DNA of 64,000 nucleotides from Rhizophagus irregularis (lineage: Eukaryota > Glomeromycota > Glomeromycetes > Glomerales > Glomeraceae). The notes beneath the pieces were generated by a model. It was not told where the DNA came from, did not search any database, and was given only the letters and a program-made list of their open reading frames with translations. This document shows positions 2,011-37,429 of the stretch, piece after piece; within the stretch, counting starts at the first letter, position 1, and every line of letters begins with the position of its first letter. The position numbers and the translations under genes are program-made. The stretch spans positions 1,054,001-1,118,000 of the forward strand of contig NC_089457.1 of NCBI RefSeq assembly GCF_026210795.1. Direction: 5' to 3'.

Positions 2011-2902
2011 CAGTCGCGTCGGAAAGTAATGCCCGATTTGAAAATGAAGACAAAAACAAAAATATTTGTATTTTTTCACCAGTATATACATTAGTAAAAT
2101 ATTTATATCTAGTTTACTTCTCATACTACATCAAATTTTCACAATCCCAGGGTGGCAGCCTTCCCAAAAACAGAACTATTTAAATTTTTATTTTTTCTTC
2201 AGTACAGCTTTAAGTTCGCCTACAGCATTTGGGAGGAGGTCAACACTTCTGGGTAATATATTGGTTCGTTTCTAATTGTTCTTTACTTTGTTTAAACCAA
2301 GTAAATTTGTTGGCAAATCAGTAGTTGCAATTTTATTTAATTTTAGCTGATTTTTGGCTTAAAGATGAAATCTATAATTATCTTGCCACTCGTGATTATC
2401 TTGGCATCCAGTGATCCAAATTTGGCGAATAAGGGCTCATTGGATTCGTCTCGTCAAGACGAATTGAATGGTGGTCGGCTCATATCTCTAGGATCAATAT
2501 ATGCTAAGATATACATTAAAATATATTTTGGACGTTTTGGCCATTATCTCGTGATATATCGATATTATACACATGGGCTGGCCACCATTCGATGCGTCTC
2601 GAAGAGACTAATCCAATGAGCCTTTGATTATCAAAATTGGATCACTGGATAGTGAGCTATTCCCGATTTTATGAAATTCAGAGTTTCGAAAAATTTTCAG
2701 GTAAAGTATGTTTGGAGGTATATCTCGGCATCTATTGGACCTAAAGACATGATTCAACTAACATTGGACTCATCTTGGTGAGGTGAATCCAACAAGCCTT
2801 AATTTGTCAAACTCTGATCACTGGATGCTGGGATAACCATAGTGGCTAAATAATCATAACCTCCATCTGTAAGTAATCGGGCAATACTTTCCGACGCGAC
2901 TG
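2011..2902. mobile_element. TA-target (Tc1/mariner-type) non-autonomous element
   Basis: The terminal inverted repeats begin CAGTCGCGTCGGAAAGTA (2011-2038, inverse ending at 2902) and are flanked by TA at 2009-2010 and 2903-2904. There is no transposase. The interior (about 2385-2860) holds two copies of a module centred on a palindrome of the type GATTCGTCTCGTCAAGACGA. That module also fills the interiors of unrelated elements at 9.7-10.7, 30.5-31.5 and 36.8-37.4 kb. Short open frames inside are chance frames. Confidence 0.8.
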
Positions 2903-3339
2903 TACAGTATCTGTAAGTAAATTACGCACTATATTCCACTATGCCAGCAATTTAATACTTACCGGTTAAATTGCATAAAAATAGAAGAATAAGTTCCATT
3001 TAAATGACAAAACTAGTTCTCTAGTAAAAAGAGTTTCGTCTATAAATTATTAAAAATCCTATCAGGAAAGAAGTTTTTGGTAAAGTCACGCAGTTTTTCT
3101 GAAGGAAAAAAAACACACTTAAATCCCTTTAAATTATACAAAATCAAAACCTACCTTTATATGGAAATTATACATTGATTTATATTGGCAATGATCTCGC
3201 TAAAAATTGAACAGATTTAAAAAATTCATAAAAAAGAAACACCTTTGACCCCTAAATTTTACAAAAAAAAATTGTCTACCTTTATATGGAAGTTGTGTAT
3301 CAGCTGTGTCACTAAAATAATTCAGTTAACTTTTGACAA

Positions 3340-3540
3340 TTATGATTTATGACCAATCAGCATTACGCCAATTCACCAAATTGGTGCAATTCGGCATTAC
3401 GTCAATTCACTAAATCGGCACAAATCGGCATTACGGCAATTCGGCATGTGCTATTTTAGATCGGGTCTGGTGTAATATATTTCGGCATTATATGGTGTAT
3501 TGCCGAATTACCATGGGTTAATTCACCACCATATATAATT
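3340..3540. repeat. Short direct repeats of a CGGCATTACG/AATTCAC motif
   Basis: Four or more irregular copies of a 25-35 bp unit built on ATTACGNCAATTCAC and AATCGGCA lie in 3355-3520. They have no coding potential. This may be the eroded subterminal region of a DNA transposon, but no matching partner end was found. Confidence 0.4.
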
Positions 3541-3554
3541 GGGGAGGTTTTTCT

Positions 3555-4079
3555 TTAGTATCCTCCATCACGATAATAATAACCTCTATTACGTTCACCA
3601 TATTCATTACATCCACCGTATCCATCATCATCCGAATCATCTGGCATTCCTTCATTCGTTTCTTTCACCGACTGGGGTATGGAATCAAAATACGCACAAT
3701 CCTTCGCACAATCTTCCAAGATCATTTTGTAGTAATCATCCTCAGCTTCGAGAGAATTGCTTGGGCCGGCTTCTTTAGAATCATCAGAAGAATTAGAGAT
3801 ATGGGCTAATGGAATAGGTGTAGTTGATTCCTTTGGAGGCAAGACCTCCAATACATTATTCTGATCGGATCCCTCTGGGACCTCGTCATCTTGTTCTTCA
3901 TCCTAGCTTCATCAGTGAATTCCATATTGGGTTTTTCGGTGAAGTGATCTATAATCGTTTGAATCTGAGGATCAGTAAATTTCAAAATAGTATCTGCACT
4001 ATATTTTTTTATATATTGAAGCTTGTCCATTCCTATTTTTTCGAATAAATCGTCAATTCTCAAAGCTTTCTGTGTTTGC
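3555..4079 (-). pseudogene. Broken lineage-type gene related to the exon at 16126-16830
   Basis: The 5' part (4079 to about 3865) reads LFEKIGMDKLQYIKKYSAD and continues to a segment on IQTIIDHF. This matches the block LFSKIGENKIMQIKSYSAN in the gene at 16126-16830, so the two are paralogues. A plausible splice acceptor (TTATGTAG) precedes 4079. The frame then changes near 3860 into an acidic Ser/Asp/Glu-rich tail ending in Gly/Tyr-rich sequence (stop at 3555). That frame change suggests a frameshifted remnant. I do not recognise a biochemical function. The repeated block looks helical and is shared within the window. Confidence 0.5.
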
Positions 4080-4376
4080 CTACATAAAGTTTTGCGCTTG
4101 GTATTTAGGTTTTAACGGGGTTAACGGGACCCACATATTGGAATGAAACGTTATACCGTAGTTTTACAGTAATAAAATCATAAATTTATCCTTTCTCTAA
4201 TTAACCCATTGTTAAGCAGTGACACGTCGATCAAACATCATGCTTAGTAAACTCAAATTTTAAAAGCAGAATTATATTTTTTTTGCAATTTTGTATTTTT
4301 TAAATTCTATCTTTACATCAGAAATAAAATAAATCAAATGAAAAAAATACCCGCAAGTGCAAATATTACATTAAGA

Positions 4377-5508: not shown

Positions 5509-5712
5509 AAATAAGTATTATTAGTCTAAATATCACACTAATAATGCTTTGTGACGTACTTTAAAACTCGGCTATTTCCATAATTAGATGAAAAAGGAAC
5601 GGAACGGAAAAAAGATAGAAAAAAAAAGACAGATTAGATGGTGTAACGATTAGCTTTTTATAATCATACTGACGTAATAACGTAATAATGATGTCACTTT
5701 TAAATCATTGAG

Positions 5713-6754
5713 GCAAATGTATCATATGGGCTGATTTGTCTACTCTGCATTAAAAAGAGTTATTGATTGATTTTCACAATTTTTGTTACTCAAAATTGTT
5801 TTGTAATACCAAAAAATCATCTGATTGATGATCACTTGACTAAATAATAAGTTGAACAAAATTTTACATTTGCGAAACTTAAATTATTAAATGTAAAAGA
5901 GCTGTGAAAAAACCCATTTCTCTAATAAAAAACCCATTTCTTATATATATGGAATTTTTAACATATATTATTAAAAAGTAAGTATATTTTAATAAAATAT
6001 AAAGTAAAATAAAAATTTATATAGCCTTAGTAGCTATAAATGTTTATAAAAGTATAATAAAAATATCATATAAAAGATGGTATTATAATAAATATTTTCA
6101 AACAATAAAAATAATTATTTTATGTCAGAGTTTGTATTACCATCTTTAAACGCAAATATATCAAGATTCACTGATCCGTTTTCTATAATTTTAGGCTCGT
6201 TGGAAAGCCCTTGTTCTGGACTTTATAGGCGAAAAAAGAGCTCGCCGATTGAATCATTAGATCTGGAGATATTTACGTTTAAAGTTGAGGTATGAACTTT
6301 TTAACATGCTTAAATGCAAATATCTTGGGATCTACTGATCCATTTTTTATAAATTTAGGCTCTTTGGAAAGCCTTTGATCTGGTCTATATGAACGAAAAA
6401 AGAGCTTGCCAATTGGATCACTGGATCTGGAGATATTTACGTTTTAAGGTAAAATACAAATTTTTAACATATATAGTAAATGCTAAGAATTATATTAATT
6501 TAAAAGAAATATTTACCAAATTATAGTATAATAACATTAAATAAAAATTTTTTAATACTCATTTCCAATTTACTGTATATTATATAGTATTTTGTATAAT
6601 AAAAATGTAATAAAATTAATATTTTAATTAAAGGTAAACAAATCAGCCCATATGTCGTTCTTATATGTGTATGACATACGACCTATATTATGTGACATAT
6701 ACAGTACGTCGTATAAGAACATAGCACCTGATCGTATAAGAACGATACATTTGC
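5713..6754. mobile_element. MULE-like MITE with 9-bp target duplication
   Basis: The ends are GCAAATGTATC and its inverse, flanked by identical 9-mers ATCATTGAG at 5704-5712 and 6755-6763. A second pair of inverted motifs (CATATGGGCTGATTTG, at 5723 and near 6654) lies inside. The right arm carries AGAACATAGCACCTGATCGT, which recurs inverted at 63037-63088. The interior at about 6140-6460 holds two tandem 130-bp units built on ACTGATCC...GGCTCNTTGGAAAGCC...GGAGATATTTACGTT. There is no coding capacity. Confidence 0.8.
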
Positions 6755-6836
6755 ATCATTGAGACGCAGTGAAAATTGATTTTTGCTAACGCAGGAAAAT
6801 TTAACACTAAAGATTGCCAAGAGGTTCATGATCGGT

Positions 6837-7355: not shown

Positions 7356-7654
7356 TTTCCTTTTTATATGACTGCAAACAATTTAAATCCTTTTTTTCTC
7401 ATCAATTTGAAAAAAGATTAAAAATTTTCAGATAGAAAGCTGTCTATCATACTTCCAAAAAAATAGTTAGATCATTTCGTTTACAAAGTGAACAGGACTA
7501 TGCAGTTATCTCAATTCACACTGTTCCACCGGTAAAATGCTGTCCAACCGGCAATCTTGCCGATTGGAGTATATTTGTCAATTCATAGTCATTCCGATGG
7601 TATAATATGATATAATATTAAGCAACCAGTATTCATCACATATTAGATGGAATC

Positions 7655-7900
7655 GGAAAATTTCCTATTGATGTTTATTGTCAAAATCTAAATAACGATT
7701 GGTATTTATTTGTACTAAGATTTTTCAAACAATTGATTCGAAATTATTTGGCAATTAAAGTAAAATAAGTAGCGAACGGTTGCCTATTGATGTTTATTGC
7801 TAAATAAAACAGTTGATTCGAGATTATTTGGCAATTTAAATTAAAATAAGTAGCGACTGGTTGCTTATTGATGTTTATTGCTAAATATTATGTTGGTCGT
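7655..7900. repeat. Subterminal direct repeats of the 7.5-15.2 kb CACTA element
   Basis: Three copies of a 90-120 bp unit containing CCTATTGATGTTTATTG and AAATTATTTGGCAATT start near 7661, 7781 and 7859. CACTA elements typically carry such subterminal repeats as binding sites for their accessory protein. Confidence 0.6.
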
Positions 7901-7984
7901 CAACTGTACAATCCAATTTAATAAATTTTTAACAAAAATAACTAACAATTTTGTATAATTTACATTATAATAATATTAATAATA

Positions 7985-10900
7985 TTATATGTTAAATTTT
8001 CTTCCTATAGGAAGAACAGCCATATAAACTACTGGATTTCTTTTTCCGATTTTATATACACTTAATATAAATCGACCAAGTATATTGTGTACCGGAATTA
8101 TGCAGTCTCTATCGATTTCAAAAAAATTATTTGTCCAGATTTCTGCGTTACAGGCTTCGATATTGTCAACTTGAAAATGAAATCTCGTTCGATGATTTGG
8201 AGCCGGTATGAACTATTTTACGAAAGCCAATTTATGTATTACCTTTTTTTCCTTCCCTATCTTCAACTCATGTTCAAAGTAATACTAAACTTGGCCCGGG
8301 TATATTTCTATTGAATCATTTTCTTGCACGAACTTTGCAAGAATAAACGAATTTTTTAAGTAGCGGGGTGTATTCGTCGATCCGAATATCTCTGCTCTGA
8401 TTCGAATACGCCCGAATTGATTTACTTGAGGCCAGACAACAACTGGTTTATTATTGCTCTTCATAGATCCGGCTATAGTAACAAATTCTAATTCATAAGC
8501 GTTATTATAGTAATCTACCAGAAGTTTATATATTTCGTTTGGTAAATTTACTAAGTTATTTCTTGGAGCCATCATTTTTCCAGGAAATTGTTCACTACCG
8601 GTTATAATATCTTCAACTTCGAGATTATAAATAAGCATAAACCGGTGTAATTCATCATGTTGAAAGTTGTCATACGCCGCTAAACTTCCCGTTGTTAGCC
8701 GAGACTTGATCAATCCTAGTCCTTCAGTAAGCTTTGGGTTATGTAAATGACAGGATATCAGTTCATCTAACCGCCAGTTTTGCATAATAATGCGTAACAA
8801 TTTCGGTTCAATCTGACGGTGTGAATTCGGAAGTGATCCTTATTTTTAAAATATAGTTAGAATTCGTACTTAAATTTATTATTTGGTAATAAATAAGTTA
8901 CCTAATATCCCATTCATTCGTTCAAAGGAATAACACCAGAACGAATATACTGGACCGTAATCTCGGCAACACTCCGATAAGTGAAGAGACAAATGGATAT
9001 TTGGTGTTACCATTTCTGGTCCATAATTGTTTTCTATTAAGCGAGCAACTTTTAATAATCGGTTGTGAGCTTCACTTAATTTTTCTTCATCGATAATTCG
9101 AGATACCAATAGATAGCACGCCTTGACGAAATTAGCCAAAATTTCCTGATCAACACTATCTAAAAGATCCCACATGATCGGAGTGGCGTAAATCATAATA
9201 AATAATTTCCACTGATCGGCTGTGAAGCCAGAAAAGCCTTCTCCAGTGGAAATCTTACATGGAATACGACCTAGGTCGGCAGGTAGGTTTGATCATCTTT
9301 GCACGAATTTCCATTATTTCAAGGTCAGATTTAGTAATTTTCCTTTATCAATCCAGATTCTTTTTACGATCCAATGAAAAAGACCGAGAAATAAATTATG
9401 CATTGGATCAACGACTAAGAATCTTATCGGATTGAAGTAGGGCAGACGTAATAATTCCGACCAACGAACATGCGTTTTGCTAACATGGTCTTTCTGAGCT
9501 TCTTTCGTCTTTTGATGCTTCCAAGCGATAGCATTATGCAAATGCTCCTGCAGATCTTTCATTCTAAACCAATCATCCATATCATCGAATCCTCCGAAGT
9601 TTTGTTTCTGAGCATTATCATCACAACTTGCTCTTTTATAGCATCTATGGCATCCGACTAACGCAGATATATGTCCACACAGTTTCCTCACAGCTGGTAT
9701 GTTGCATGAACAACATATTACTGCTACAGTCAACTCTCTTTATAGTCACACATTTGGGACAGTCCATATTTAGTGATTATAAAGAGATGTGACTATATAA
9801 AAAATTTCTTATATTTGTATATCATAATTCCGGCCAAAAATTAACATAATTTTAGCCAGAATTATACTTAAAACTTTATTGTATCGTAACATCGCCAATA
9901 TTAATCGTAGAGAGATGATCTTACCGCCATTCGATTCGTCTTGATGAGACGGTTCTAATGGTATAAAATACGTCGAAATCCAATCACTAGATTAATTTCC
10001 GAAATTAAAAAAATATTAATGGTTTTTGTGTAATAACTCTGCCAATATTGATCCTAGAAAGACGATCTTACTACCATTCGATTCGTCTTGATGAGACGAA
10101 TCTAATGGTATAAGATACATCGAAATCCAATCACTAGATCAATTTCCGAAATTAAAAAATATTAAATGGTTTTTAAGTAATAACTCCATTAATATTGATC
10201 ACAAAGAGATGAGCTTACCACCATTCGATTCGTCTCGATGAGGCAATTCCAACGAGCTATAAATCGTCTTTTTACAATCACTAGGTACCGAGAAATCTAG
10301 CAAAATGTTAAATGGCGCAGTAAACGTAAATCAAGAAATATTATAATGCCGATGTTTAGCATTTTGTTGAATAACTCGTCAGCCAGTGATCGGAAAAGGA
10401 TAAAACTACCACCATTCGATTCGTCTCAGTGAGACGATTCTAACAAGTTATGATACATCTTTGTACGATTATTAGATGCCAAGTTATTTAATATATTCTT
10501 TATATAACTGTGATTATAAATGGTTCTTTTTAATATAAGATTTTTGAGGATAGGTGTGATAGTGACTATAGATAGATTGTGACTATATAGGATAGATTTT
10601 AATAATAAAGTGTTTTGAACATTCAACTGGTGTGACTATATAGTAGAATGTGACTATAACGGGAGTGACTATAGAGGGAGTTGACTGTAGTCAAATTTTC
10701 TTACCGCTTGGATATTTATCAGTTGGTGGCAAAATAAAACCATTCCACAGTTCTAATAATTCGTCTACTATTGGCGCAAGATAATGATTGATTTGATGCA
10801 ATTTTACCTCGTGTGGCCCCGGCAACAGACCTAATGTTAATATATTTTCCTTTTAAACCTTGCTTCACGGGGTAAGTTGCATATAACCCCATATATCACG

Positions 10901-12149
10901 CCACAACTATATATCGATAAATCGAAAGGTTGGAACCAGTCTAGGTTGATCATAATTCCTAGATTTAATTCCGCCGTTTCAGATGTAAAGAATTTTAGAG
11001 GATCCGGAATATCTAATCGTGATGGAAAATTCTTCCAAATTTCACCATCGTAAATATCCGACATGCAATTCACATTATCCCGATTAATCCATTTTTTTAA
11101 AAGTTGCTCGAATCCTGATCTTTGGTACATTATAGATAGTTGTGACTTAAGACATGATAATGGATACAACATCTTTGGACGCCAAATGTATCCATTATTT
11201 ACCGGGACCTTCATAAGTAATTCGGATCCACAGCATTCACGATATTTTTGCATTGGATGTTTTGGGAATTCAACGTGAGTACATTTAAATCCTGAAAATT
11301 CATTATCGTTTGAATTTGCTGGAATTATTGATGCAATGTCATACAGCTTATTACAATCAGTACAAACGGCAAAGGTTTTGATTTTTTCTTAATATCTAAT
11401 ATTTTTCTGGCCTTATAAACAGTTGGAGGAAATTTTTTAAACCGATGTGAATTGGCATCTTTTAAAACAAGGCTAAAGAAGCCAATCAACGTGTCGATTG
11501 CAACATCAGATTGTCTGAACCTTTCTTGGAATTTAAAGATCCAAAGAAGAATCCATAAATCATCCACATCCATATCCATATTGTCCTGATTTGAATCATA
11601 ATCATAATTAGAAGCAGGTGCTGTAAACATTCCATCATCATCATCTAAAAACAGTTCATCATCTTCGCTATATTCAACATCATCATCAGCTAAAATCTGC
11701 CGGGAACCTTCTTCATCACCAGATGAATCAACTTGTTGTTCTGGTTCTTCATCAGGAATGATCGTCATTTCACGAAATTGAAATCGATTATATCTTACTC
11801 CCTTTTTTCTAATAATAACCGGCTCTTCATATTGATCTTGATCAATTATTATATCTTCATCTCTACAAAGATCTTGAGAAGGCTCGATATCATCAGGATC
11901 ATCTGATCGAATTTTAACTGAAGCAGATTCAGGACGATTATTTGGGTTTGATGACGAATTTTTTCTTCTGTTCTTCCTTCTGCTTTCCATTATTTTAGTA
12001 ACTGAATCTTCAAGCCGATTTTCCTCATTTATATGAATACTTCTAGTTCTAGAATCAATGATTTTACCATTATATAATTTGCAAGGACACGGTACTTTTG
12101 GGCAAACTTTTGTACGTCTTTTAACTTCAGATTTTTGTTGATTAGACAT
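7985..12149 (-). pseudogene. Tnp2-type CACTA transposase, interrupted
   Basis: The start is the ATG at 12149 with a Lys/Arg N-terminus, then a small Cys motif (CPKVPCPC), a long acidic linker, and WILLWIFKFQERFR. The frame shifts near 11375 into a zinc-ribbon-like segment (CTDCNKLYD) and continues to DIYDGEIWKNF and LDWFQPFD. The family blocks follow: CNIPAVRKLCGH, FLVVDPMHNLFLGLFHW (a catalytic-type Asp), TPNIHLSLHLSECC and SFERMNGILG. A short intron follows (donor GTAACT, about 8830-8884), then EIFGSTNTPRYLKNSF and a C-terminal IPVHNILGRF, with the stop at 7985. It aligns block for block with 31595-34853. It is not functional: there is a frameshift, in-frame stops, and a MITE inserted at 9727-10687 between GKKI and the CNIPA block. 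Confidence 0.8.
9727..10687. mobile_element. 961-bp pogo/Tigger-type MITE, copy 1
   Basis: The ends are CAGTCAACTCTCTTTATAG (left) and, inverted, CAGTCAACTCCCTCTATAG (right), flanked by TA at 9725-9726 and 10688-10689. The TIR style (CAGTC...CTATAGTCAC...TTTGGGAC) fits pogo/Tigger elements. Both ends contain repeated TATAGTCAC motifs. The interior has four tandem palindrome-centred units of about 150 bp. It is inserted in the Tnp2 gene. Near-identical copies occur at 30525-31484 and, split, at 17649-17944 plus 36765-37429. Confidence 0.9.
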
Positions 12150-15154: not shown

Positions 15155-15702
15155 TCACATTTAATAAAATAAGATCTGGCTTTATACCTACCTTCTATTT
15201 CTTCATCATCATGACCTAAATTGCATAATGGGCAGATAGTCTCTCTTGAGACTCCGCATGATATCTCATCAGTAATCCCATAATAATCGAAATTTTCACT
15301 ACTACCTTCTCTATATAGATTAGGATATTGATCCAATATTTTGTTGTGAAAATAGGTGCGGTCATAAGTTGGCTTAGATTGGGCTCGCATCTTTGATATA
15401 TTTGCTTGAGACATGTCTGATGAAATCATTTCCGATGAAGCATTTATCTTGATTTCTTTTTCATTCAATAAGGACCGGCACTTAATGTAGTAAGAGCCCT
15501 TTATATCTCGGCCAACTACCTTTCCTTTATCATGCTCTTTTTCACATCCAGGACATAAGCCTGAACTCTTAAATTCATATCTGTCATTATTAAACATGGG
15601 TAACGAAACTGAAACTTCCCACAACTCTGTTAGTTTCGGTATATACAAAATAGAGTTTTGGAAATGCATATATTTTTCCGATTCCTGAATCCTGACCCGA
15701 AA
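15155..15702 (-). CDS. Exon with two CPxC...H...C zinc-like repeats, 3' end displaced by a CACTA insertion
   Basis: The open frame begins after a likely acceptor (ATATTTCAG at 15703). It encodes two copies of one motif: CPGCEKEHDKGKVVGRDIKG followed by SYYIKC, and CPLCNLGHDDEEIEGRYKAR followed by SYFIKC. The spacing C-x2-C-x4-H, then G-x-[YR]..., Y-x-I-K-C, suggests a small zinc-binding domain. A related motif ends the protein at 6837-7355. The frame runs into the CACTA terminus. In the pre-insertion sequence it ended about four codons further on, at 7507. Upstream exons were not found, and the pieces at 16126-17541 could belong to the same gene. Function is unknown. Confidence 0.5.
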
Positions 15703-15717
15703 CTGAAATATGCCCAA

Positions 15718-16125
15718 AATTTTTATTAGTTTTCCTTACAGTAAATCTTAAATAAAGGTATCAAGTTCAATTTCTAATAGTTTGTTCACTATTAAATTAT
15801 TCCTAATATTAAATCCAAATTAACTATATAACTATTAGGGTAGAATTTGTTCACTCCATTATATTCCTCAATCCTCATATAGCGTCGGGTATTACAAATT
15901 TCTTGATGATTATTGAGCACGTGATTTCGTCAATTATAACGTATGGCACAGTTGTTTAAGTAATTTAATTGGGTAATGCTAGTTTCGGGATATCAGGATA
16001 GGTTTTGGAATATCGGAAGTTGTTTTGAGTTTTGGTAGAAGTTTAGGTTACGGGTTGAGTTTCGATTCGTATATACCAAAACCCGAAACATTCGGAAATG
16101 CTCTTAGGAGTTTTGATACCCATGT
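15718..16125. other. Spacer, nothing recognised
   Basis: AT-rich sequence with some TTTCGGGTT/GAAACCCG-like words (16000-16110). I saw no supported gene, RNA or transposon end. Confidence 0.4.
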
Positions 16126-16830
16126 TTAGTCATTATGTTTATTACTATTATATAAGAATAGGTAGAGATATTCTTTCAAAGTCATATTGATATAGGGAGC
16201 ATGAGCATCATATGGGATGACTGGTGAATTGACTGGGACTGAAGAATTAGTGGGTGCAATTGGAATTCTTACTTTAGATTTGGCAGGTGCAGTTGCATCG
16301 CTAGTGATCATTTCTGAAGTCACGTGAGTGCGTAAATTTTTTTCACGCAGTGTTGTTTTAATAATATCGATTTGCATGTCAGTTAACTTTGAGAGTTTAT
16401 TTGCACTATACGATTTGATTTGCATAATCTTATTTTCTCCAATTTTGCTAAATAATATATATATGGGCTTAGTTAGCTGGGTTTTTCTGCGTAAGTTTAC
16501 ACAAGAGACTTCTGAAAAATGCTGTAGCATTTTATCATAAATCTGCTCACTCACAAGTTCATAGGCTTTTTTATTCGTAATAAGTCTATTCTTTAGGATT
16601 CCAGGCAAAATCCCACTATGTCTTTTTTCAAAATACCTTCTATAGCAATACCAGCTTATGATTTCATCTGATTTGGTTCGTATAGTTTTAATTTCAGCAA
16701 ATTTCATTTTTTTATATAGATAGGCTAATTCGATTGCAGGCAATTGATCAACAGCAGCACTCTCCTCCACATTAATAACCTTAACACAATCTTCTTCCGA
16801 AGGTTTTATAAGCAATTTTTGTATCAAAGG
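16126..16830 (-). CDS. Exon of a lineage-type hypothetical protein
   Basis: A 235-codon open exon preceded by a plausible acceptor (GATATACAG at 16831). There is no ATG near its 5' end, so earlier exons are expected. It contains AIELAYLYKKMKFAEIKTIR, then a basic region (SWYCYRRYFEKRHSGILP). A block follows, IYILFSKIGENKIMQIKSYS through LTDMQIDIIKTTLREK, that recurs in the pseudogene at 3555-4079. The tail is Pro/Ser/Thr-rich and ends with stop at 16126. The repeated helical block marks a gene family in this genome. The biochemical function is not recognisable. Confidence 0.5.
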   Translation of the reverse strand, partial: PLIQKLLIKPSEEDCVKVINVEESAAVDQLPAIELAYLYKKMKFAEIKTIRTKSDEIISWYCYRRYFEKRHSGILPGILKNRLITNKKAYELVSEQIYDKMLQHFSEVSCVNLRRKTQLTKPIYILFSKIGENKIMQIKSYSANKLSKLTDMQIDIIKTTLREKNLRTHVTSEMITSDATAPAKSKVRIPIAPTNSSVPVNSPVIPYDAHAPYINMTLKEYLYLFLYNSNKHND

Positions 16831-17648: not shown

Positions 17649-17944
17649 CAGTCAACTCCCTCTATAGACACTCCCGTTATAGTCACATTCTACTATATAG
17701 TCACACCAGTTGAATGTTCAAAACACTTTATTATTAAAAACTATCCTATATAGTCACAATCTATCTATAGTCACTATCACACCTATCCTCAAAAATCTTA
17801 TATTAAAAAGAACCATTTATAATCACAGTTATATAAAGAATATATTAAATAACTTGGCATCTAATAATCGTACAAAGATGTATCATAGCTTATTAGAATC
17901 ATCTCACTGAGACGAATCGAATAGTGGTAGTTTTATCCTTTTCC
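17649..17944. mobile_element. 961-bp pogo/Tigger MITE copy 3, left part (split by a LINE)
   Basis: It starts with CAGTCAACTCCCTCTATAG after TA (17647-17648) and ends at a 16-bp sequence, AGTTTTATCCTTTTCC (17929-17944). That sequence is repeated at 36749-36764, where the rest of the same MITE resumes. The two parts sum to 961 bp, matching the intact copies. The orientation is opposite to copies 1 and 2. Confidence 0.9.
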
Positions 17945-21100: not shown

Positions 21101-23599
21101 GATGCCAATCTTAGAAGAAGCAATAAGTGTAGAATCATCTATAAACGTTAAATGTGAAATTGGTAAAGAATGTTCAAATTCAAGTGGAGAATAATTCAAA
21201 AGAGCTGAAGATTTCAAAATAAAGGGGTCTCGTGCTTTTCGATTTAAAACAGTAAGGAGAGAGTCCAAGTAGATAACCTAAAGTAAGGGGAAATAATTTC
21301 TTCTTGATCGATACCAATATGTACACGATAAGCAGCAGTATCACCATGACAAGTAATAATCCTATTATTTCGTCGTGTGAAAAGGTTCAAAATAAATTGC
21401 ACTAAATGTGCAGGGAAATGTAATCTAACTAAAGCTAATTTAAGCATATTCAAATCCATAGAATCAAAGGCTTTAGAGATATCTTGAGAAACGATCCATA
21501 GTTCCTGATCATAAGTGGAGTCATGTTTTTGTTGATGGATAATCGCATCAAGCATTTTGATAGGGACATCAGTAGAACCACCAGGTAAACCAGCAAAGTT
21601 ACCTCCTTGGAGAACTTTATTATCGGCAAGGATGTTAGAAAGATGATTCGTGATGACCTTAACAACACACTTTCGAACTGTTTCCAGAAGAGTAATAGGT
21701 CGAGTGTTCTTGAGTTGAGCATCAAAATCATGAGGTTTAGGAATAGGATAAACTACGGCTTCACGCCAGTCAGCAAGTAAAAAAGAGAAGTTCAAGGCTT
21801 CACCGGATAAATACTTTATCATCTCATAAGAAATTTTTGAAGGGCCAAAAGCTTTGTTATTTGGCATGGAGGAAATTACATCAGACCATTCTTGCAAGGA
21901 AATAGGTGCCAAAACAGGATCATATAATGAGGCGGGCACGTCAGAAAGGGGGTGTAAGCTAGTTGCCAACGTACAGGAAATGAAGTGATAGAAGAATAAT
22001 GGATCAACGAAGGAGAAACAATAGATTGGAAATGAGTAATAGCAGCTTGCTTAATATCTGAAGGATCCGTTAATAAAGTAGAAGTAGAGTCCAGGATGAC
22101 CAAAACGCGGTCAAGAACAATCGAACATTTTTCAACTGATAAGGCTGAGTCAATAAAGGTGCCGAGCAAGTTCGAAAGTGTTCATCACGTAATGCGGTAT
22201 AGTATTCCACAGAGTCCGAAAGATGTTGGGCGAATTTAGTGAATAAAAAGGCAGAAACTAAATTCTTCTGTGATCGTAAAAATAATTTGAATACAGATAC
22301 AGGAGTTGTAGAATAGGTAGGAACTGTATAATCAGGAAGCAAAGATGCAAGATTCTCAAGATAAGAAGGTAAAGCAGTAATCATTTGTGAAAACTGAGTA
22401 GGCCGATTAGGATGACGAGTAGTAAGACGATATAAAAATCGATCTAAAAACTTGTTAATAGCAATAAGTTTAGTTAATTCAGGAGAATATGAATATCGGT
22501 GCGTGTTGGAAACTTTTTGAAACGGTAATATTTCAATTGCAGCACTAAGTATGGCAGCTTTCAAAGCATGCCACATACGATCAAGAGAAAGAGAGGAGAA
22601 ATCAAGATTAGAATGATATTGTTTGTCCAAATATACTCCAAAAGAATTATCAACTTCAGTGGTAAAATTATTCCATTGTTCAACTGAAGTGGAAGTGTAA
22701 GAAAAAATAGTACGCATTTCTTTTTTTTGTTTAAGACGAGATTTAGCTAAAATAGCCAGGCAAGAACTGAAGTCAAAAATAGTTGTAAGAACTTTATGAT
22801 CCGTAAAAGGACGATCAAGGAGATTAGGGCAGGCAACCATTTGCGAAAAAAGACCAGGAGCAGGAAAACCAGGTGAAGACCAGATATAATCCAGTCTAGA
22901 TGATCCATTTGCATGGAAAAAGGTGGGATCAGGACCATCAAGAGAGGAATGAGCTTGATGATCGGTAAAAAATCGAGAAGAAAGTAAACGAAGAAGCTTA
23001 AAGTGACTAGACGGATAATTAGAATGAGCGACTTCATCAATATTAAAGTCGCCAAGAATAATTACAAAATAATTATGAATTCGGGCATAATCAAACCAAG
23101 AAAGAAGTTTAGCAATAAGATCATTGCAAATGGTTTGATGAATAGAACCAAAAGGAGGATAATATATAGAAATAATAGAAATTTTTGTTTGATGAAAAAA
23201 TAAATCTAATTTGAGAAGATGACCTTTCCAAGGATCAATTGTCTGAACATGTTTATGAAGAGGATTACGTAACAAAATACCAACACCATCATGAGGACGA
23301 GAAGAGGATGAACAGGCCCAATAGGACCTAAAATGATGTTGGGAGTGTTCATTATTAAAAATAAATTTAGCATTTGAAGGGGAAAGGCAAGTATCATTAA
23401 CAGATAAAGCACCAAAAGAAGAGTGAAGAAAAAAATTAAGCAAATGTTGTTGTCTAACTGGGGAACATAAACCGTTGACATTAATTTGACCAAATTTAAA
23501 AAGGGGAGAAGGGTGTGGAGAAAAATTATGTTTCTTGTTGTCCATCATTACTACACTATGATTAAAAGCGTAAGTAGTAAAGGAGGAGATAATAAGCAA
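18196..23599 (-). pseudogene. LINE ORF2: endonuclease, reverse transcriptase, RNase H
   Basis: The first in-frame ATG is at 23548, just after the ORF1 stop at 23603. The endonuclease domain (GQINVNGLC, VIILGDFNID, SRLDYIWSS, FTDHKVL) has the APE-type catalytic Asp, Asn and His pattern. The reverse transcriptase follows: ISYEMIKYL, AVVYPIPKPHD, NTRPITLLET, VSQDISKAFDSMD, and the catalytic box FIDDSTLIAS in place of F/YADD. The RNase H domain shows YIDGSFHVA, SEIYAVVLGL, SIYTDCSQLI and IQADSLVKDA, so the D-E-D-D residues are present. The C-terminus has a Cys pair (CPQC) and His, but the expected later Cys reads Tyr. Frame changes near 22165, 21970, 21285 and 20880 and further ones in 18.2-20.4 kb show it is broken. 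Confidence 0.85.
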
Positions 23600-24694
23600 T
23601 AATTATTGGAAGTTCACATTATCGCGAGCAGCCAAGAATTGTTTTTGTTGAGCCATGCCTTGTTGAACCGTTTTGGAAAGTTCGGTAATTGTGGCAGTAA
23701 GAGAAGAGAGGCGATCGTGTGGTGATGTGGCAGGACCAGGGATTAAACTCATACGGGGAGGGAGGGGAATATGTGATTGAGCAATGAAATTGGGACCATT
23801 TGATGGCGAAGCAGGAGAACTAAAATCCATGAAATTGTCACTAAGACGTCTAGAATCAGGAGTATCATTACTATGATCCCATCCTTGATCAATAGTCGTT
23901 GTCTCAGGAGGAAGAGAAACTTGAGATCTTGGAACAGGAGGGGAAGAATGTTGGTCTTCTAACCATTTAACTCGATTTTGAAGTAGGGCAAATTCTGTGG
24001 TGAGATGAGTAATTTCTTCAAGTATGGCAGTGATTTGTTTAGTAATATATTGCCAATCCATTAAAGGAGGAACATCCATTGCAGCTATGTCATGATCCAA
24101 TTCAGATTGAGAAGGACGATGGGGATGATGACGATGATTATTATGTTGAGAGCGTGAACGTGAAGATCTAGGGCAAAACCGGGATCGGGAAGGAGCTCTT
24201 CTATTAGCAGCATCAGCATAAGATCTTTGTTGGGAATTAGCAGGACGTGCGAAACGATTGTGACGTTTAGTAGGATGAGAGGGAGGTAAATGTTTGTTAT
24301 ATAATTCACGCAATTTATCATAATTGTAATTACTGACAAGCAAAGACGCTGAGGAAAGACGCAGGTGAAGACATTTATCTGGATTACAACTGGGGCGACC
24401 ACAACGACGGCATAGAGAGGAGACTTCAGTAGATTCATGCAAGTAAGTGCCAATAGATTTAAGAGCGCAAGTAATCTCCATAGCCGATTCTTTAGTAGCA
24501 GCAGAGGAAAAGTGTACATATGCGTAGGGTTTAGGATTATAGAAGTTGTAAGAGAAGGGAATGTTGACGCTTTTGGCGGAAACTTCATTGGCAATTTTGG
24601 AAAGGTCAGCGGCAACAGAACCACGAGGGAGGCTGGCAAGAAGTGCAACATGAGCGCGTCTGATAGCGTGTTGATCAGGCGAATGAGAAGCAGG

Positions 24695-25424
24695 TAGTGC
24701 TCCGAAAAAAATCTGATCTGATCAGATTTGATCTGAATCTGATCTGTCAGATTCAGATCAGATCAGATAAATTTAATCTGCAGTTCAGATTCAGATCAAA
24801 AAAATTTGATTTGAACAAATCAGATTAGCTTCAGATCAAATCAGATCAGATCAGATCAGATTCAGATTAGGCTTATTCAAAATCTGAATCTGATCAGATT
24901 GAATCTGACAGATTTGATTCAAATTTCAGATTTGATTTTACTAATAATTTCAGCCGAATTCATAATGCCGGCTGGAATTAATTCCTAAATTTTAACTCCA
25001 GCCAAAACGGATATGTCGATCATTTCCTTTTTTTGGCGATAGCCATTCCACAAAAATCGATTTTTATAAGAACCAAGTTGGAATTTTGTGTAACCTAAAT
25101 TTCCTTTTTAGGAAATTCAATAATTCCTGCCAGAGTTAAGTGCATAATTCTGGCCGAATTACATATTTACAAATTATAGCTTTAGAATTTATAATATATT
25201 TATTCAGATTCAAATCAGATTCAAATCAGATCAGATCAGATCCAGATCAGATCGATTTAATCAGTTTTGAATCAGATCAGATCAGATTTGAATCTAATTA
25301 AATCTGATCGATTCGAATTAAATTTCCGATCGATCGAATCAGATCAGAATCGGATTCAATTTAATTATTTGATCAGATTGAATCTAAGTAAAATCTGATC
25401 TGATCTGATCTGTTAGGAGCACTA
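24695..25424. mobile_element. 730-bp hAT-like MITE packed with GATC/AGATCAGATC repeats
   Basis: The ends are TAGTGCTCC and its inverse GGAGCACTA, flanked by an 8-bp duplication GAAGCAGG (24687-24694 and 25425-25432). The 8-bp duplication and short TIR fit the hAT superfamily. Both subterminal thirds consist of irregular ATCTGATC/GATCAGAT repeats. The middle (about 24945-25200) is non-repetitive. There is no coding capacity. The flanking LINE ORF1 frame is continuous across the site after removal of one duplication copy. Confidence 0.85.
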
Positions 25425-25914
25425 GAAGCAGGGCAGACGCATAAGTAATGTCCAGTACAAAGAACAGCCCACGTGGTATCAAATTGTTCCATGGACGCGG
25501 CAGAGTCGAAAACTATATACGCAGTGCGATAAAGTTTCGAGAGACGTGTACGGCAGTGGGTAACAATACCATAACGGGAGAAAGTACCCCTTAATTGTGC
25601 ATCAGTAACAAAAAGGGGGATGTCGGTGATAACCAGAGTACGAAGCTGTTCATCTACCTTTTTAGCAGATGGGTCATGTTCGTGGAACTGGAGATTATGC
25701 AGGGAGGCGATAGGCACAGCTCACTGGTCAAAATAGTCCAAATCGGCTAGAAATCGGATGTCCGATTTTAGGCCGAATTTGGTGATAAAGATGGCCGATT
25801 TATTAATTTAGGCAAAGTTCCGATTGGCAGGCCGATCGATGCTGATCAGAATATCCAAATTGTATCTGAATTGCTTAGTATTTTTGATCCGAATTGTTTA
25901 AAAAAATATATTCA

Positions 25915-28845: not shown

Positions 28846-28914
28846 AATATTCGTTTAAAAAATCGAAGCGGGTTCAATATCGTCATATCGTCCTATTTAT
28901 AAATTTAAAAATCA

Positions 28915-30524: not shown

Positions 30525-31484
30525 CAGTCAACTCTCTTTATAGTCACACATTTGGGACAGTCCATATTTGGTGATTATAAAGAGATGTGACTATATAAAA
30601 AATTTCTTATATTAGTATATCATAATTCCGGCCAAAAATTAACATAATTTTAGCCAAAATTATACTCAAAACTTTATTGTATCGTAACTCCACCGATATT
30701 AATCGTAGAGAGATGATCTTACCGCCATTCGATTCGTCTTAATGAGACGGTTCTAATGGTATAAAATACATCGAAATCCAATCACTAGATTAATTTCAGA
30801 AATTAAAAAAATATTAATGGTTTTTGTGTAATAACTCTGCCAATATTGATCCTAGAGAGACGATCTTACCGCCATTCGATTCGTCTTGATGAGACGGTTC
30901 TAATGGTATAAAATACATCGAAATCCAATCACTAGATTAATTTCCGAAATTAAAAAATATTAATGGTTTTTGTGTAATAACTCTGCCAATATTGATCACA
31001 GAGAGATGAGCTTACCACTATTCGATTCGTCTCGATGAGGCGATTCCAACGAGCTATAAAACGTCTTTTTACAATCACTAGGTACTGAGAAATCTAGCAA
31101 AATGTTAAATGGCGCAGTAAACGTAAATCAAGAAATATAATAATGCCGATGCTTAACATTTTGTTGAATAACTCATCAGCCAGTGATCGCAAAAGGATAA
31201 AACTACCACCATTCGATTCATCTCAGTGAGACGATTCTAACAAGCTATGATACATCTTTGTACGATTATTAGATGCCAAGTTATTTAATATATTCTTTAT
31301 ATAACTGTGATTATAAACGGTTCTTTTTAATATAAGATTTTTGAGGATAGGTGTGATAGTGACTATAGATAGATTGTGACTATATAGGATAGTTTTTAAT
31401 AATAAAGTGTTTTGAACATTCAACTGGTGTGACTATATAGTAGAATGTGACTATAACGGGAGTGACTATAGAGGGAGTTGACTG
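30525..31484. mobile_element. 960-bp pogo/Tigger-type MITE, copy 2
   Basis: TA-flanked (30523-30524 and 31485-31486), with the same ends and near-identical interior as the copies at 9727-10687 and 17649/36765. It is inserted about 110 bp upstream of the Tnp2 start in the 10.3-kb CACTA element, between the minisatellite and the transposase. Confidence 0.95.
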
Positions 31485-31594
31485 TATACATACAAATTAT
31501 ACAAATTTTGTGTTATTCCAAATTTTATAAAAATCGGCCTTTTTACAAATTTGGATTTTGCCAAACTTATTAAACTTATTCAAATACTAAACAA

Positions 31595-34500
31595 ATGAGC
31601 AGAAAAAGGTCAGTCTCTAGTATACTTGACGATCTTGATGATGAAGAATCACCTTCAAATCAGCCATCTTCTACTTGTAGAAATAGATCAATTTCTGGTA
31701 TAATAAACGAAGAAATAGTATCTTCTGCTAGACCAACAAGTAATAAAAGAAAACTAGTAGTTTGTAATTGTTCTGATTGTGATGGCAACTTGGTGGATTC
31801 TCGCACAAAAGAAATTCACGATTCTAGACATCAAGAATACCAAGATTCGCAAGGTACAATTTCGTCTCAAGTTTGTCAACTTGAAATAAAGGTGAAACAT
31901 CAATACCCGCTTCAGCTGGACGAATGATTGACGAATCTATTAGACAAGAATCGGAAAAATCAGATAACAGTAATCAAGATGATGTTGATAATGAACATCA
32001 AGATGTCGAATTTAACTTCTTACCTCGACAACGTGCAAGAAAGTATACAAATCGTCCGGAAATTTCAGAAGATCCAGAAGATTCATCATCATCCGAATAT
32101 ACTACAGAGGAAGATATCTACAGTGATACATTGTCTATAGGCAGTGAATCAGATAATGATCCAATTTCTGGAATTTCTGAAATTTTTGAAGACTATTCAC
32201 CACCTAGTTATGAACCATTTCAAAACCCACCATATTTAGAATCGAATTATGATCGATTTTTATGGATTTTACTTTGGATAATGAACTTTCGAACAAGATT
32301 CAATATCGCAGAGACAGCTACTGAGACTCTAATAAAATTTATGAAATTGGCCCTGTGCGAGTTCAGTAGTGACGATTTTAATGATTTCCCAGATTCGCTT
32401 TACTTAACTGAAAGAAGGCTTGGATTAAATGACCAATTTCATAGTTTTGTACCTTGTCCGAAATGTCACAAATTGTATAAAAAAGAGGAAGTGGTAGATT
32501 TCAAACAAGAGGACAATCCTGCTATAATGAAATGTCAACACATAGAATTTCCCAATTCTTCAGTTCGCAGATCACGTCTTTGCAATACGGCATTGTCTGA
32601 AAAAATTAGCGCATCGACAAATCGAACAATAATACGACCTAATTTAATGTATCCGTTTGCTGGAATCAATCAACAACTTGCCACTATGTTTTGTCGGCCT
32701 GGGTTTGAAAATTCTCTCTGACATTGGGCTAATCGGTCGAATTTTGATAATATTTTGACCGATATATATGATGGGCAAGTGTGGAAGAATTTTAAAGAAT
32801 CGGACAATGAAGATTCGCCAAATTTTTTCAGAAGCGAAGTGGCCGATTTTCATCTTGGCTTGATGCTGAATCTTGATTGGTTTCAGCCATATGATAGTAC
32901 CATTTATAGTATCGGTGTCATATACGCCGCTATATGCAATTTGCCATGCGATATCCGATTTAGACGTGAAAATTTATTGACTCTCGGCATTTTACCTGGG
33001 CCAAAGGAGGTCAGCTTACATAAAGTGAACCACTATTTAGCACCAATAGTTAACGAATTGGAAACACTCTGGGCTGGGTTAACACTAAATCGTACTTATG
33101 AATACGAAAATGGAAAGAGAGTTCGTGGCGCTTTAATCTTAGTATCATGTGACATTCCCGCCGCAAAAAAAATTTGTGGTCATATTTCTGTTTTAGTTTC
33201 ATGTCACAGGTGTGAGAAAAAAGCAAATTATGAAAATGGGTAGCATAATTTTGCTGGAATGGATAATGTAGGGTATTCTGCTCGAGATTCGAATGAGCAC
33301 CGGCAAAACGCATTAGGTTGGCGAAGATGCAACTCAGACGCTGCTAGAAAGCGTTTCGTCAAAGAAACTGGCGTTAGATGGTCTGAATTGTTGCGTCTAT
33401 CATATTTCGACCCTATTAGATTTATTACAGTCGATCCAATGCATTGCTTATTTCTGGGCATTGCGAAGTTGATAGTAAAACGAATTTGGATCGATGGGGT
33501 ATTTTGACACCAAATTCTTTGAACAAAATTCAGAAAAAGATGGACGAGTTTCGGATACCATCCGATTTAGGTCGAATTCCAGGAAAAATTCATAGTGGAG
33601 AGGGATTCACCAATTTTACGGCCGATCAGGTGGTGAATATTCTTTACAATTTATTCAACTGTATCACTTTGGGAACACCTTTCAGACGTAGATAAAAGAA
33701 TCCTGAATCATTTTGTCAGGGTTTGTTCGATTTTGGTAAATCAGATTCTAGAATCTAATTTGGTGGATGAAGCCCATAGAAGTCTTATCGAAATAGTCAA
33801 GCTCATTGAGAATCACCACGGCAGAGATAAGATCACACCGAATCTTCATCTTTCTCTGCATTTGCGCGATTGCTCATCTGATTATGGACCATTATATGCG
33901 TTCTGTGTTTCTCTTTCGAACGTATGAACGGTATTTTAGGTAAATATCCATTAACGATTTTTTAACGATTTTAACGATTTCAATATTAGCTTATAATTTA
34001 TTGATTTCGCACTTTTAGGTTCGTTACCAAACAGCAACAGGAAAATTGAGTCTGAACTTATGCGTCGATTAATGTTTGATAAACAAAATCGAAAAATATC
34101 CTAAGTTCAGGTATCGAAGTAAAAGGTCTTGAATTGCTAAACAGTCAGCGTACTATCGGGTTCCTTTCAGTTACTGATGAATTTTCATCAGATGAGATGC
34201 ATCGATTTTGGCTGAATTCACAAAATATTAAAGATTCACAGATTTCTGGCAAAGAAGGCTTCCCAGGTGAATTTCTTAAGCCAGTATTTCATAATATACT
34301 ACTTTCAAGTGAAATGTTAAATTTAATGGTCGAATATTACAATGCGACTTACAAATCATTTGGATTTCGGAGGCCTCTTGTAGAAGGTTTAGATAACGAT
34401 ATAATAATTAGGGTCAAAATTAACCAATTCGAAAGGTGTCGGATTGGTTCAGAAGTCTTTGGATCGTCATTATCGTTAAGACATGTAAAAAGTTCGTACG

Positions 34501-34853
34501 TCTTAGCGAAATTTATTACGGATGATGAAGATGTCGACACCTACCCAGGTTAAATTCAGTATTATTTTACTCATGTAGTAGACTTTCCGGATGGTCCCGT
34601 CGAACATTTTCTAGCATACGTTCGTTGGTATAAACACGCAAATTCAACCAATATTCGATACTATTTCAGCAGTGATGAAATTTGTAATGTTGAGTTGTGG
34701 AATACCGAATTTTATCCAATAAGTCGTGATTGTATAATACCTGTGCATCATATTTTAGGTAGATTTGTACCAGTAAGTTACCAAATCTCAAACCGGCAAA
34801 ATGCAAAAGAGTATTTAGCCGTAAATCCAATTAGTAGAAAATACCAATTATAA
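31595..34853 (+). pseudogene. Tnp2-type CACTA transposase, several breaks
   Basis: The ATG at 31595 gives a Ser/Asp-rich N-terminus with a small Cys motif (VCNCSDCDG), then an acidic linker. WILLWIMNFRTRFNIAET and a zinc-ribbon-like CPKCHKLY lead to DIYDGQVWKNF and LDWFQPYDSTIYSIGVIYAA. LTLGILPGPKEVSL, HYLAPIVNELETLW, CDIPAAKKICGH and CHRCEKK follow. WSELLRLSYFDPIRF, VDPMHCLFLGIAK, a short intron (about 33941-34018) after RMNGILG, EVFGSSLSLRHVKSS and IPVHHILGRFVPV complete it, with the stop at 34853. The LPGPKE, CDIPAA and VDPMH blocks are Tnp2 signatures. Frame changes near 31920 and 33500, stops near 32719, 33241 and 33692 and others make it a pseudogene. The MITE just upstream may also have displaced its promoter. 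Confidence 0.85.
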
Positions 34854-34987
34854 ACTTATAAGTTTTAGACATAAATTTATAATAAATTGAGTAATTGACT
34901 ATAAATTTGGTGTTGATTTTTCCGAATTTCTGAATTTTAATGATTAATCATGTTTTTCAAAAGTTAATTTTGATGACTTTTTTTGTA

Positions 34988-35915
34988 TCAATCAGCCGTC
35001 AATCAAATATAATGATTTTTTGCCGAATTTCTATCGAATTTTTATTGAATTTTTATTGAATTATCAATTTTCCATAAATCGGAAGTACATATTTGAATAT
35101 TGGGTAAATTTTAGGTTGATTTGTCATTTTGTCTGATTTTTTTTTGATTTCAACCAGCATCAATCAGCCGTCAATCAAATATAATGATTTTTTGCCGAAT
35201 TTTTATTGAATTTTTATTGAATTTTTATTGAATTGTCAATTTTCCATAAATTAGAAGTACATATTTGAATATTGGGCAAATTTTAGGTTGATTTGCCATT
35301 TGTCTGATTTTTTTTTCGATTTCAACCAGCATCAATCAGCCGTCAATCAAATATAATGATTTTTTTCTGGATTTTTATTGAATTTTTATTGAATTTTTAT
35401 TGAATTGTCAATTTTCCATAAATTGGAAGTACATATTTGAATATTAATTTAAATTTTTAGGCTTGATTTGCCATTTGTCTGATTTTTTTTTTGATTTCAA
35501 CCAGCATCAATCAGCCGTCAATCAAATATAATGATTTTTTGCCGAATTTTTATCAAATTTTTATTGAATTTTTATTGAATTGTCAATTTTCCATAAATTG
35601 GAAGTACATATTTGAATATTGGGCAAATTTTAGGTTGATTTGCCATTTGTCTGATTTTTATTTTGATTTCAACCAGCATCAATCAGCCGTCAATCAAATA
35701 TAATGATTTTTTTCTGGATTTTTATTGAATTTTTATTGAATTTTTATTGAACCATAAATTGGAAGTACATATTTGAATATTGGGCAAATTTTAGGTTGAT
35801 TTGCCATTTGTCTGATTTTTTTTTTGATTTCAACTAGCATCAATCAGCCGTCAATCAAATATGATGATTTTTTTCTGGATTTTCATTAAATTGTCCGATT
35901 GGCATCAATCAGATG
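34988..35915. repeat. Right subterminal tandem repeats of the CACTA element, 6 x ~170 bp
   Basis: Six units start near 34988, 35158, 35331, 35508, 35685 and 35843. Each contains ATCAATCAGCCGTCAATCAA, GAATTTTTATTGAA, AGTACATATTTGAATATTGG and GATTTGCCATTTGTCTGATT. The last unit is truncated before the terminus at 35997. Confidence 0.9.
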
Positions 35916-36764
35916 TGCCGATTTGTAATGTCAGTCAATTTTGGTCTGATTTTTAGCTGATTTTCCATATGTCCGATTTTTTTGATTTCGACCAGTGGCT
36001 ATTACCTTTTCCATATCTGGTTTAGAACGAAAATAGACAACGATAATTTTAGTGTCGCCTGATCCTTGAGTGGTAGCTTTACTACCATAAGAGGAAAAAG
36101 AAGAGAATTCTCGGTCAGTCACGTCGCAAGCTTCGCGATTGGTTTTGAAGTGGATCCAAAAATCTTTGATAGTAGAGGGCGCAGCCGCAGCATAGTAGCG
36201 AAGGGGAGAAGATTGTATAGCAGCGGTAGACGCGTCAGGAGACGCGGCGCGTTTAGGTTCAGGAGGCAAAATTTCTACAGATTTTCCTTTATCAGCAGAG
36301 TTAGAAGGAGAATGTTGGGAGTCATCAAGGGAGGTACCAGAGTCAGGAGCCGAAGGGGACGCGTTGGTGTCAACGGGAGGGGGGAAGAAGTTGAAGTATT
36401 ATCCTGAGGAGCAGGAGGACTGGAGGAGTTAAAATATTGTCTTGGTCCATAATGGGTTCAGAAAAAACCCGAGTGCGTTTTGCAGAGTTGTCGGTCGAAA
36501 GTTGTGAAGTAGGACTAGGAGTAGAAGCAGAAGAACCTTGACCTTGAACGTTGCCAGAAGGAGGACTCTGGGCAGGACGTTTTGGAGCAGAAGTACCAGA
36601 AGCTTTGTTATTTCGTCTGTTAGTCATAGCTAAAAGTAGAAGGGAGAACTAGAAATATGTAATAGTTAGCAGTAACGCGAAGTAAATAATAAAAATACTT
36701 CGAAATTTTTTTTTTTATTTTTTGTCGCAATATTGTCGTGAAGGCAACAGTTTTATCCTTTTCC

Positions 36765-37429
36765 AATCACTGGCTGACGAGTTATTCAACAAAATGTTAA
36801 ACATCGGCATTATAATATTTCTTGATTTACGTTTACTGCGCCATTTAACATTTTGCTAGATTTCTCAGTACCTAGTGATTGTAAAAAGACGTTTTATAGC
36901 TCGTTGGAATCGCCTCATCGAGACGAATCGAATGGTGGTAAGCTCATCTCTCTGTGATCAATATTGACGGAGTTATTACTTAAAAACCATTTAATATTTT
37001 TTAATTTCAGAAATTGATCTAGTGATTGGATTTCGATGTATCTTATACCATTAGATTCGTCTCATCAAGACGAATCGAATGGTAGTAAGATCGTCATTCT
37101 AGGATCAATATTGGCAGAGTTATTACACAAAAACCATTAATATTTTTTTAATTTCGGAAATTAATCTAGTAATTGGATTTCGACATATTTTATACCATTA
37201 GAACCGTCTCATCAAGACGAATCGAATGGCGGTAAGATCATCTCTCTACGATTAATATTGGCGAAGTTACGATACAATAAAGTTTTAAGTATAATTCTGG
37301 CTAAAATTATGTTAATTTTTGGCCGGAATTATGACATACAAATATAAGAAATTTTTTATATAGTCACATCTCTTTATAATCACCAAATATGGACTGTCCC
37401 AAATGTGTGACTATAAAGAGAGTTGACTG
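36765..37429. mobile_element. 961-bp pogo/Tigger MITE copy 3, right part
   Basis: It continues the MITE begun at 17649-17944 after the LINE insertion and ends in the inverse of CAGTCAACTCTCTTTATAG, with TA at 37430-37431. It carries three and a half of the palindrome-centred 150-bp units. Confidence 0.9.

Follow-up and report, generated by a model that had tools for sequence, protein, structure and literature searches.

A tandem palindromic module inside miniature inverted-repeat elements with different ends in a 64-kb window of Rhizophagus irregularis

Results

The locus and the elements that carry the module

We analysed a 64-kb, AT-rich stretch of the Rhizophagus irregularis genome (contig NC_089457.1, positions 1,054,001–1,118,000), called here in its whole length the window, in which a tandemly repeated palindromic module lies inside several miniature inverted-repeat transposable elements (MITEs). 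The window holds Sel1-repeat frames and protein-kinase frames, two that encode the DNA-binding domain of a Tc5 transposase, a MUS81-like gene and, from an element like a long interspersed nuclear element (LINE), a frame with an endonuclease/exonuclease domain; kinase and Sel1-like genes are reported to occur in high copy number in R. irregularis (PMC8647823). A first-pass annotation of this DNA had proposed that one module recurs inside elements with different ends. This proved correct: the module unit, a palindrome of ~130 bp, nested and imperfect, recurs in tandem inside four MITE-like families, each with its own terminal repeats, represented by A, B and C/D together, by E, by G and by F (Table 1), and the profile matches that connect them exceed those of shuffled sequence.

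Table 1. Elements carrying the palindromic module and associated features, in window coordinates.
Feature	Position	Strand	Description
Element A, pogo-like MITE, 961 bp	9727–10687	+	TA duplications; four module units
Module array of A	9879–10494	+	Unit centres 9944, 10091, 10238, 10429; spacing 147, 147, 191 bp
Element B, A family, 960 bp	30525–31484	+	TA duplications; four units, centres 30742, 30889, 31035, 31226
Piece C of third pogo-like MITE	36749–37429	−	Three units, centres 37212, 37065, 36918
Piece D of third pogo-like MITE	17649–17944	−	Other end and fourth unit, centre 17907
16-bp duplication AGTTTTATCCTTTTCC	17929–17944 (left copy), 36749–36764 (right copy)		Flanks the insertion splitting C/D
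Element E, 892 bp	2011–2902	+	TA duplications, CAGTCGCGTCGG ends; units centred at 2454 (−), 2602 (+), 2778 (+)
Element G, 1042 bp	5713–6754	+	Exact 9-bp duplication ATCATTGAG (5704–5712 / 6755–6763), GCAAATGTATC ends; possibly Mutator-like
Two diverged module units in G	about 6137–6470	+	Outer arms in common with E; core not clearly conserved
Element F, 913 bp	39197–40109	+	8-bp duplication TCAATAAA; ends AGGACCCTGCTTACTT / AGGATTCTGCTTACTT, 14 of 16 positions matching
Two decayed module units in F	39262–39540	−	Centres 39326, 39477

Elements A and B are 96% identical and have the inverted ends CAGTCAACTC, matching at 21 of 23 bp in each of them and at 20 of 23 bp in C/D. Pieces C and D lie 18.8 kb apart and have the 16 bp at the break in common; because of this shared stretch, and because their lengths sum to that of A (296 + 681 − 16 = 961 bp), they represent a single MITE that was split by an insertion which duplicated 16 bp of its target. 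LINE-like frames, recognised by eye, lie on the minus strand inside both breakpoints (18196–25720 and 35931–36648; among them the endonuclease frame at 22070–23602 is the only one confirmed by Pfam), which makes a LINE the likely agent of the split. The middle of the 18.8-kb insert (about 25.9–35.9 kb), including element B, appears to be nested in that LINE. The earlier count of four tandem units per 961-bp pogo MITE thus stands for A and for the 960-bp B, whereas in the third copy the fourth unit has been split off in D. Element A itself sits within an apparent broken transposase-like gene (9314–11388, minus strand), and an apparent relative of this gene (31574–34853, plus strand) adjoins element B.

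Element E had been singled out for its different ends; these are identical to each other at 27 of 28 bp and quite unlike those of the A family, and they enclose three units. The elements A, B, C/D and E have TA duplications and CAGTC ends, which make them candidates for the pogo/Tc1-mariner superfamily, CAGT-type ends being typical of that group. Two transposase-bearing TA elements of the window, with a Tc5 helix-turn-helix domain, have CCGT ends, unlike those of A, B, C/D and E.

In element G the first 11 of 11 bp of the ends match, and its 9-bp duplication suggests that it may be Mutator-like, without a link to a Mutator-like (MULE) transposase. An inner pair of terminal inverted repeats (TIRs) with TA, at 5727–6650, offers an alternative boundary. 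A stretch of 54 bp from the right end of G recurs identically at 63033–63086, apparently another end of the same family. Element F is a hAT-like candidate by its 8-bp duplication; it lies beyond the coordinate span given to the earlier finding, although its place was named in the accompanying reasoning. Ends and duplications of the grade of F arose once in 20 dinucleotide-shuffled windows, and of the grade of G never, whereas the real window has two elements of F's grade, F itself and 15591–16128 (ends above 80% AT were excluded from real and shuffled counts alike). The latter is a possible 538-bp TIR element with the 8-bp duplication GTCATTAT and the ends TAAACATGGGTA, at the edge of two minus-strand frames.

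Elements A, B, C/D, E, F and G all have TIRs, a target-site duplication, no transposase and the size of a MITE, with G, at 1042 bp, slightly above the limits of 50 bp to 1 kb applied to R. irregularis (PMC11075540). One frame of at least 90 aa was found inside them, in E (2347–2619, 90 aa from stop to stop; no family search was made with it). The carriers fall into three duplication classes: TA (A, B, C/D and E), 9 bp (G) and 8 bp (F). Sharing between elements that differ in their ends and in duplication length is supported; A and E are not clearly of different superfamilies, since both are TA/CAGTC elements.

Structure of the module

Each unit has a ATTCGTCTYRNTGAGACGAAT-like centre, and arms of ~62–65 bp extend on either side to TAACTC/TATCTC-like ends. 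The two arms, forward and reverse, resemble each other without being identical. When unit 4 of A is reverse-complemented, it matches the A-unit profile along some 130 bp (E = 1.3e-12). The palindrome is thus larger than the 20-bp core described in the first-pass annotation. The phrase CTAGTGATTGGATTTCG, which had been given there as part of the module, occurs with at most one mismatch only in A, B and C; E has CCAGTGATCC instead.

There are 19 units in total, four each in A, B and C/D, three in E (one of them inverted) and two each in F and G. Their centres are spaced by 147, 146–147 and 191 bp in A and B, by 147 and 147 bp in C, by 148 and 176 bp in E and by 151 bp in F, and the period in G is 164 bp; tandem arrays with a 147-bp period extend over 9893–10242, 30685–31046 and 36907–37269. 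A meaning of the period as nucleosome length (147 bp) was set aside; spacings of 146, 148, 151, 176, 191 and 164 bp also occur. In B, the second unit has sequence of the unit-1 type, as an exchange between units would leave. No likeness of the module to the element ends was found above shuffles. Between units 3 and 4 of element A (10288–10380), another inverted repeat, AGCAAAATGTTAAATGG.../...GTTTAGCATTTTGTT, is present and appears as a hairpin in the DNA fold.

Sharing of the module between elements

A profile trained on nothing but the 12 units of the A family found the three E units (E = 6e-21, 3e-14 and 4e-11) and one F unit (1e-8), and a profile built from the three E units found G (1e-5) and F (2e-4). 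These two profiles and a joint one gave no match at E ≤ 1 in 20 dinucleotide-shuffled windows searched together. The score of F was reached by none of 1000 shuffles of its own sequence with any of the three profiles, and that of G by none of 1000 with the E-only and joint profiles. The weaker forms of the module noted earlier at 6140–6460 and 39228–39545 correspond to the units of G and F, each above 1000 shuffles with the E-only profile. When module blocks were compared in pairs, A–E, A–F, E–F and E–G each beat 500 of 500 shuffles.

A single-arm profile gave 49 matches in the window. The 38 best lie inside named elements, and 37 exceed the best match of 20 shuffled windows (10.5 bits), which the best match outside the elements (7.9 bits) does not reach. 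As this profile was trained on the same units, only the absence outside the elements is informative in this search. Outside the named elements nothing in the 64 kb exceeds shuffled sequence, there being neither free tandem arrays nor solo units. The module was also not found above shuffles in the TIR element at 700–1540 or in the two transposase-bearing elements at 52981–54734 and 55717–58390, the last of which holds one 6.2-bit match; these three are a partial set of elements, the other TIR candidates of the window being low-complexity-looking or left aside.

These searches bear on whether the module is, or once was, a mobile unit in its own right: a fold-back MITE of ~130 bp, with TATCTTGGCATCCAGTGATCC-like arms, whose insertion into larger MITEs was followed by tandem repetition. 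The palindromic nature of the whole unit, as seen with the reverse complement of A unit 4, and the fact that the outer arms are the best-kept part in G would agree with such an origin. We nevertheless consider it rather improbable, given that no solo unit, and none outside a larger TIR element, rises above shuffles in the 64 kb, and that single units show no flanking duplication in a by-eye reading without a scripted test.

Beyond the window, a degenerate core pattern matched 2 loci in a collection of genome contigs (257 billion bases), against ~4 estimated chance matches, and none in a collection of viral contigs. A second pattern matched 4 loci in the viral contigs, a number that a rough calculation, for which the size of the collection was assumed, also puts at chance level. 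At these six loci the profiles at E ≤ 1 matched only around the short stretch selected by the pattern. TIR patterns of A and E were not found in the viral contigs, and element A had no match to phages in a distant-mode search.

Module history

That A-type elements had inserted into E, F or G was considered and rejected for this window: A-type ends with at most one mismatch occur at A, B, C and D and nowhere else, matches with four mismatches being taken as chance. The explanation by one lineage inserted into the others, which the first-pass annotation had raised, is therefore unsupported here, and for this reason capture is favoured. Outside the module, in 23 of 24 comparisons between left and right flanks at least 7 of 200 shuffles did as well, the pairs closest to this bound being E-left with G-left (7/200) and A-left with F-left (8/200). 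As the ends differ while the tandem repeat is common, the module has apparently passed between otherwise unrelated elements. In a tree of the units, those of E group together (support 0.992), as do those of F (0.948), and A1 and A2 group with their B and C counterparts (1.000). The clustering of E and F units by element is as expected if the arrays grew after capture.

Our preferred reading, to which we give a probability of roughly 0.58, is that an old palindromic repeat of ~130 bp with two unlike arms was captured as passenger DNA by at least four non-autonomous cut-and-paste families and re-amplified in each. It would have entered each family once or a few times, as one or a few already diverged units, through recombination or template switching during repair of an excision gap. 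The latter seems the likeliest route, as palindromes favour template switching. Tandem multiplication by unequal exchange or slippage would have followed within each family. Each may then have spread by being mobilised in trans, with a transposase of its own that recognises its particular ends.

Several observations weigh against this reading. G escapes the A-only profile (77 of 1000 shuffles did as well), and the module blocks of A–G and G–F are not above shuffles (242 and 39 of 500 as good, respectively), so that G is tied in through E alone. The A units form no single supported group (A1–A4 54% and A1–A3 62%, versus 66% for A3–E1 and 62% for A4–F1), and their divergence also fits several captures or very old arrays. 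No junction recording a capture was seen, and A and E, with their common TA/CAGTC ends, could be one superfamily. Finally, the right flanks of G and F, both very AT-rich, share a 57-bp match (79%; E = 9e-7 with no low-complexity filter applied), and in the shuffle test 1 of 200 did as well. This is the only noteworthy pair among the 24 flank tests, and a mark against F and G being wholly unrelated.

Taken further, this borderline match, the TA/CAGTC ends of A and E and the similar lengths of the carriers (961, 892, 913 and 1042 bp) might suggest that all of them derive from a single MITE, the ends having been replaced or having diverged past recognition, with no transfer between families. However, duplication length, a property of the transposase, differs among them (2, 8 and 9 bp), and the remaining 23 flank comparisons stay at the level given above; we find such a common ancestor hardly credible.

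Conservation of the core

Between families, the central 31 columns of the unit changed by a mean of 1.03 parsimony steps, compared with 1.79 over all 125 columns, and 1 of 20,000 permutations was as low (8 units, A1–4, E1–3 and F1, with steps counted on the unit tree). This slow core, together with the presence of at least two units in all four families, is what one would expect of a selected cis-acting site, serving, for instance, for host-factor docking or as a transposition aid, with two-fold binding of a protein at the central dyad. The rate test is biased, however, by the partial recognition of units by their core, and it depends on weak inner branches (0.19–0.23 where A3 and A4 attach); moreover, the core is not clearly conserved in G. 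Recent copies also speak against such a site. Among A, B and C/D, variable columns number 37 of 524 in the module and 11 of 436 in the rest (p = 0.0015), and the core is no exception (12/164). The difference persists without unit 2 (28/393 versus 11/436, p = 0.003) and without the tract 10026–10190, apparently converted, in which B has unit-1-type sequence (22/375 versus 11/420, p = 0.03). Selection for a cis-acting site is thus, in our judgement, unlikely, though it is the likeliest of the competing explanations. Stronger selection on the module among recent copies was likewise discarded, as the module varies more than the rest. Decay of CpG may contribute to this variation, because the A module is CpG-rich (observed/expected 1.74, window 0.94); the G module, at 0.98, is not, and CpG is absent from the F module.

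We also regard with scepticism a broader version, in which the palindromic unit would be a general-purpose cassette exchanged among cut-and-paste elements of different superfamilies. It would be retained for the help it gives them with their common host, such as by binding a single host protein. Different transposon families of this lineage would then be expected to converge on two or more copies.

Pairing and folding

Pairing across the palindrome was examined in 14 of the 19 units, all but D4 and those of F and G, with 44 possible pairs. Paired cells made up 63.5%, compared with 28–43% when the partner was slid by one to three columns, so the palindrome is real. Column shuffles gave nearly equal pairing (63.9%) and similar numbers of double-change pairs (8.5 expected, 8 observed); pairing is therefore not maintained by compensation, and in view of this lack of excess covariation a maintained RNA hairpin is unlikely. 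Folding gave mixed results among ten units, with z of −4.7 for A2, −3.6 for A4 and −5.7 for G2, four units near −2, and A1, A3 and F1 at −0.4 to −0.8; the whole A array folded as single-stranded DNA had z = −3.3 (0 of 20 shuffles).

The three units below −3, the four near −2 and the A array would be compatible with selection of the module as a hairpin RNA, a small-RNA source or a cruciform that attracts silencing. With no excess of kept or compensatory pairs in the 14 units, with A1, A3 and F1 folding like shuffles and with no Rfam family at gathering score in the window, this seems to us very improbable. Those Rfam results also led us to dismiss a ribozyme or other RNA family, an idea prompted by the string TGATGAGACGAA; element A had only five Rfam matches, all at E of 1 or worse. 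The first-pass annotation had left open capture or selection for something the module does. Our results favour capture, whereas selection for a function is not shown, as covariation is not in excess and recent copies vary more in the module.

Discussion

The unusual part of these observations is the spread of the module over three duplication classes, since shared MITE interiors have precedents. The closest is that of the CMITEs of Acropora corals, which have different TIRs and a conserved internal region of unknown origin and are able to form tandem arrays (Wang et al, 2010; PMC2872659). The elements described here resemble them in the shared interior under different TIRs and in the tandem arrays. 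CMITEs, however, are about 100 bp long with piggyBac-like TTAA duplications, whereas the present elements measure 0.9–1.04 kb, contain a tandem palindrome and have duplications of TA, 8 bp and 9 bp, none of them TTAA.

In molluscs, the related tandem monomers BIV160, Cg170, DTC84 and CvA (nine in 1426 bp) are associated with different mobile elements, among them Helentron elements; the authors propose genomic shuffling of monomers and report junctions of the phBglII400 satellite at palindromes (Satovic et al, 2016; PMC5139131). As described, the likeness lies in related tandem monomers associated with different mobile elements; free arrays reach 17 monomers there, unlike in this window, which has none. 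The foldback transposon Tetris of Drosophila virilis is a non-autonomous DNA transposon that, like our elements, has internal tandem repeats, named TIR-220 (Dias et al, 2014; PMC4079207). In that case, however, a single element (with its relative DAIBAM) is concerned, and TIR-220 lies in long TIRs and has 37 bp in common with the terminal domain, whereas here no likeness between module and ends exceeds that of shuffles.

For R. irregularis, a MITE class is used in PMC11075540, and methylation and small RNAs at transposable elements are treated in PMC8647823; the available passages of these two papers do not describe this module. No description of it was found in the open-licence literature at the level of titles and abstract openings, and the accessible text of PMC3442997 and PMC9226531 has nothing on shared MITE interiors. 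Repeats not classified into transposable element families make up 32% of the R. irregularis genome (PMC8647823). If the sharing holds genome-wide, it would mean that cargo moves between transposons of different superfamilies, and it would help to explain the unclassified repeats of such genomes. The module would also provide a sequence tag for asking whether the interior of a MITE does any work or is passive filler.

Other features of the window

Near the left edge of the window, 700–1540 is an 841-bp Mutator-like TIR element; its 9-bp duplication, ATAATTTCT, is exact, and it has near-perfect ends of about 70 bp.

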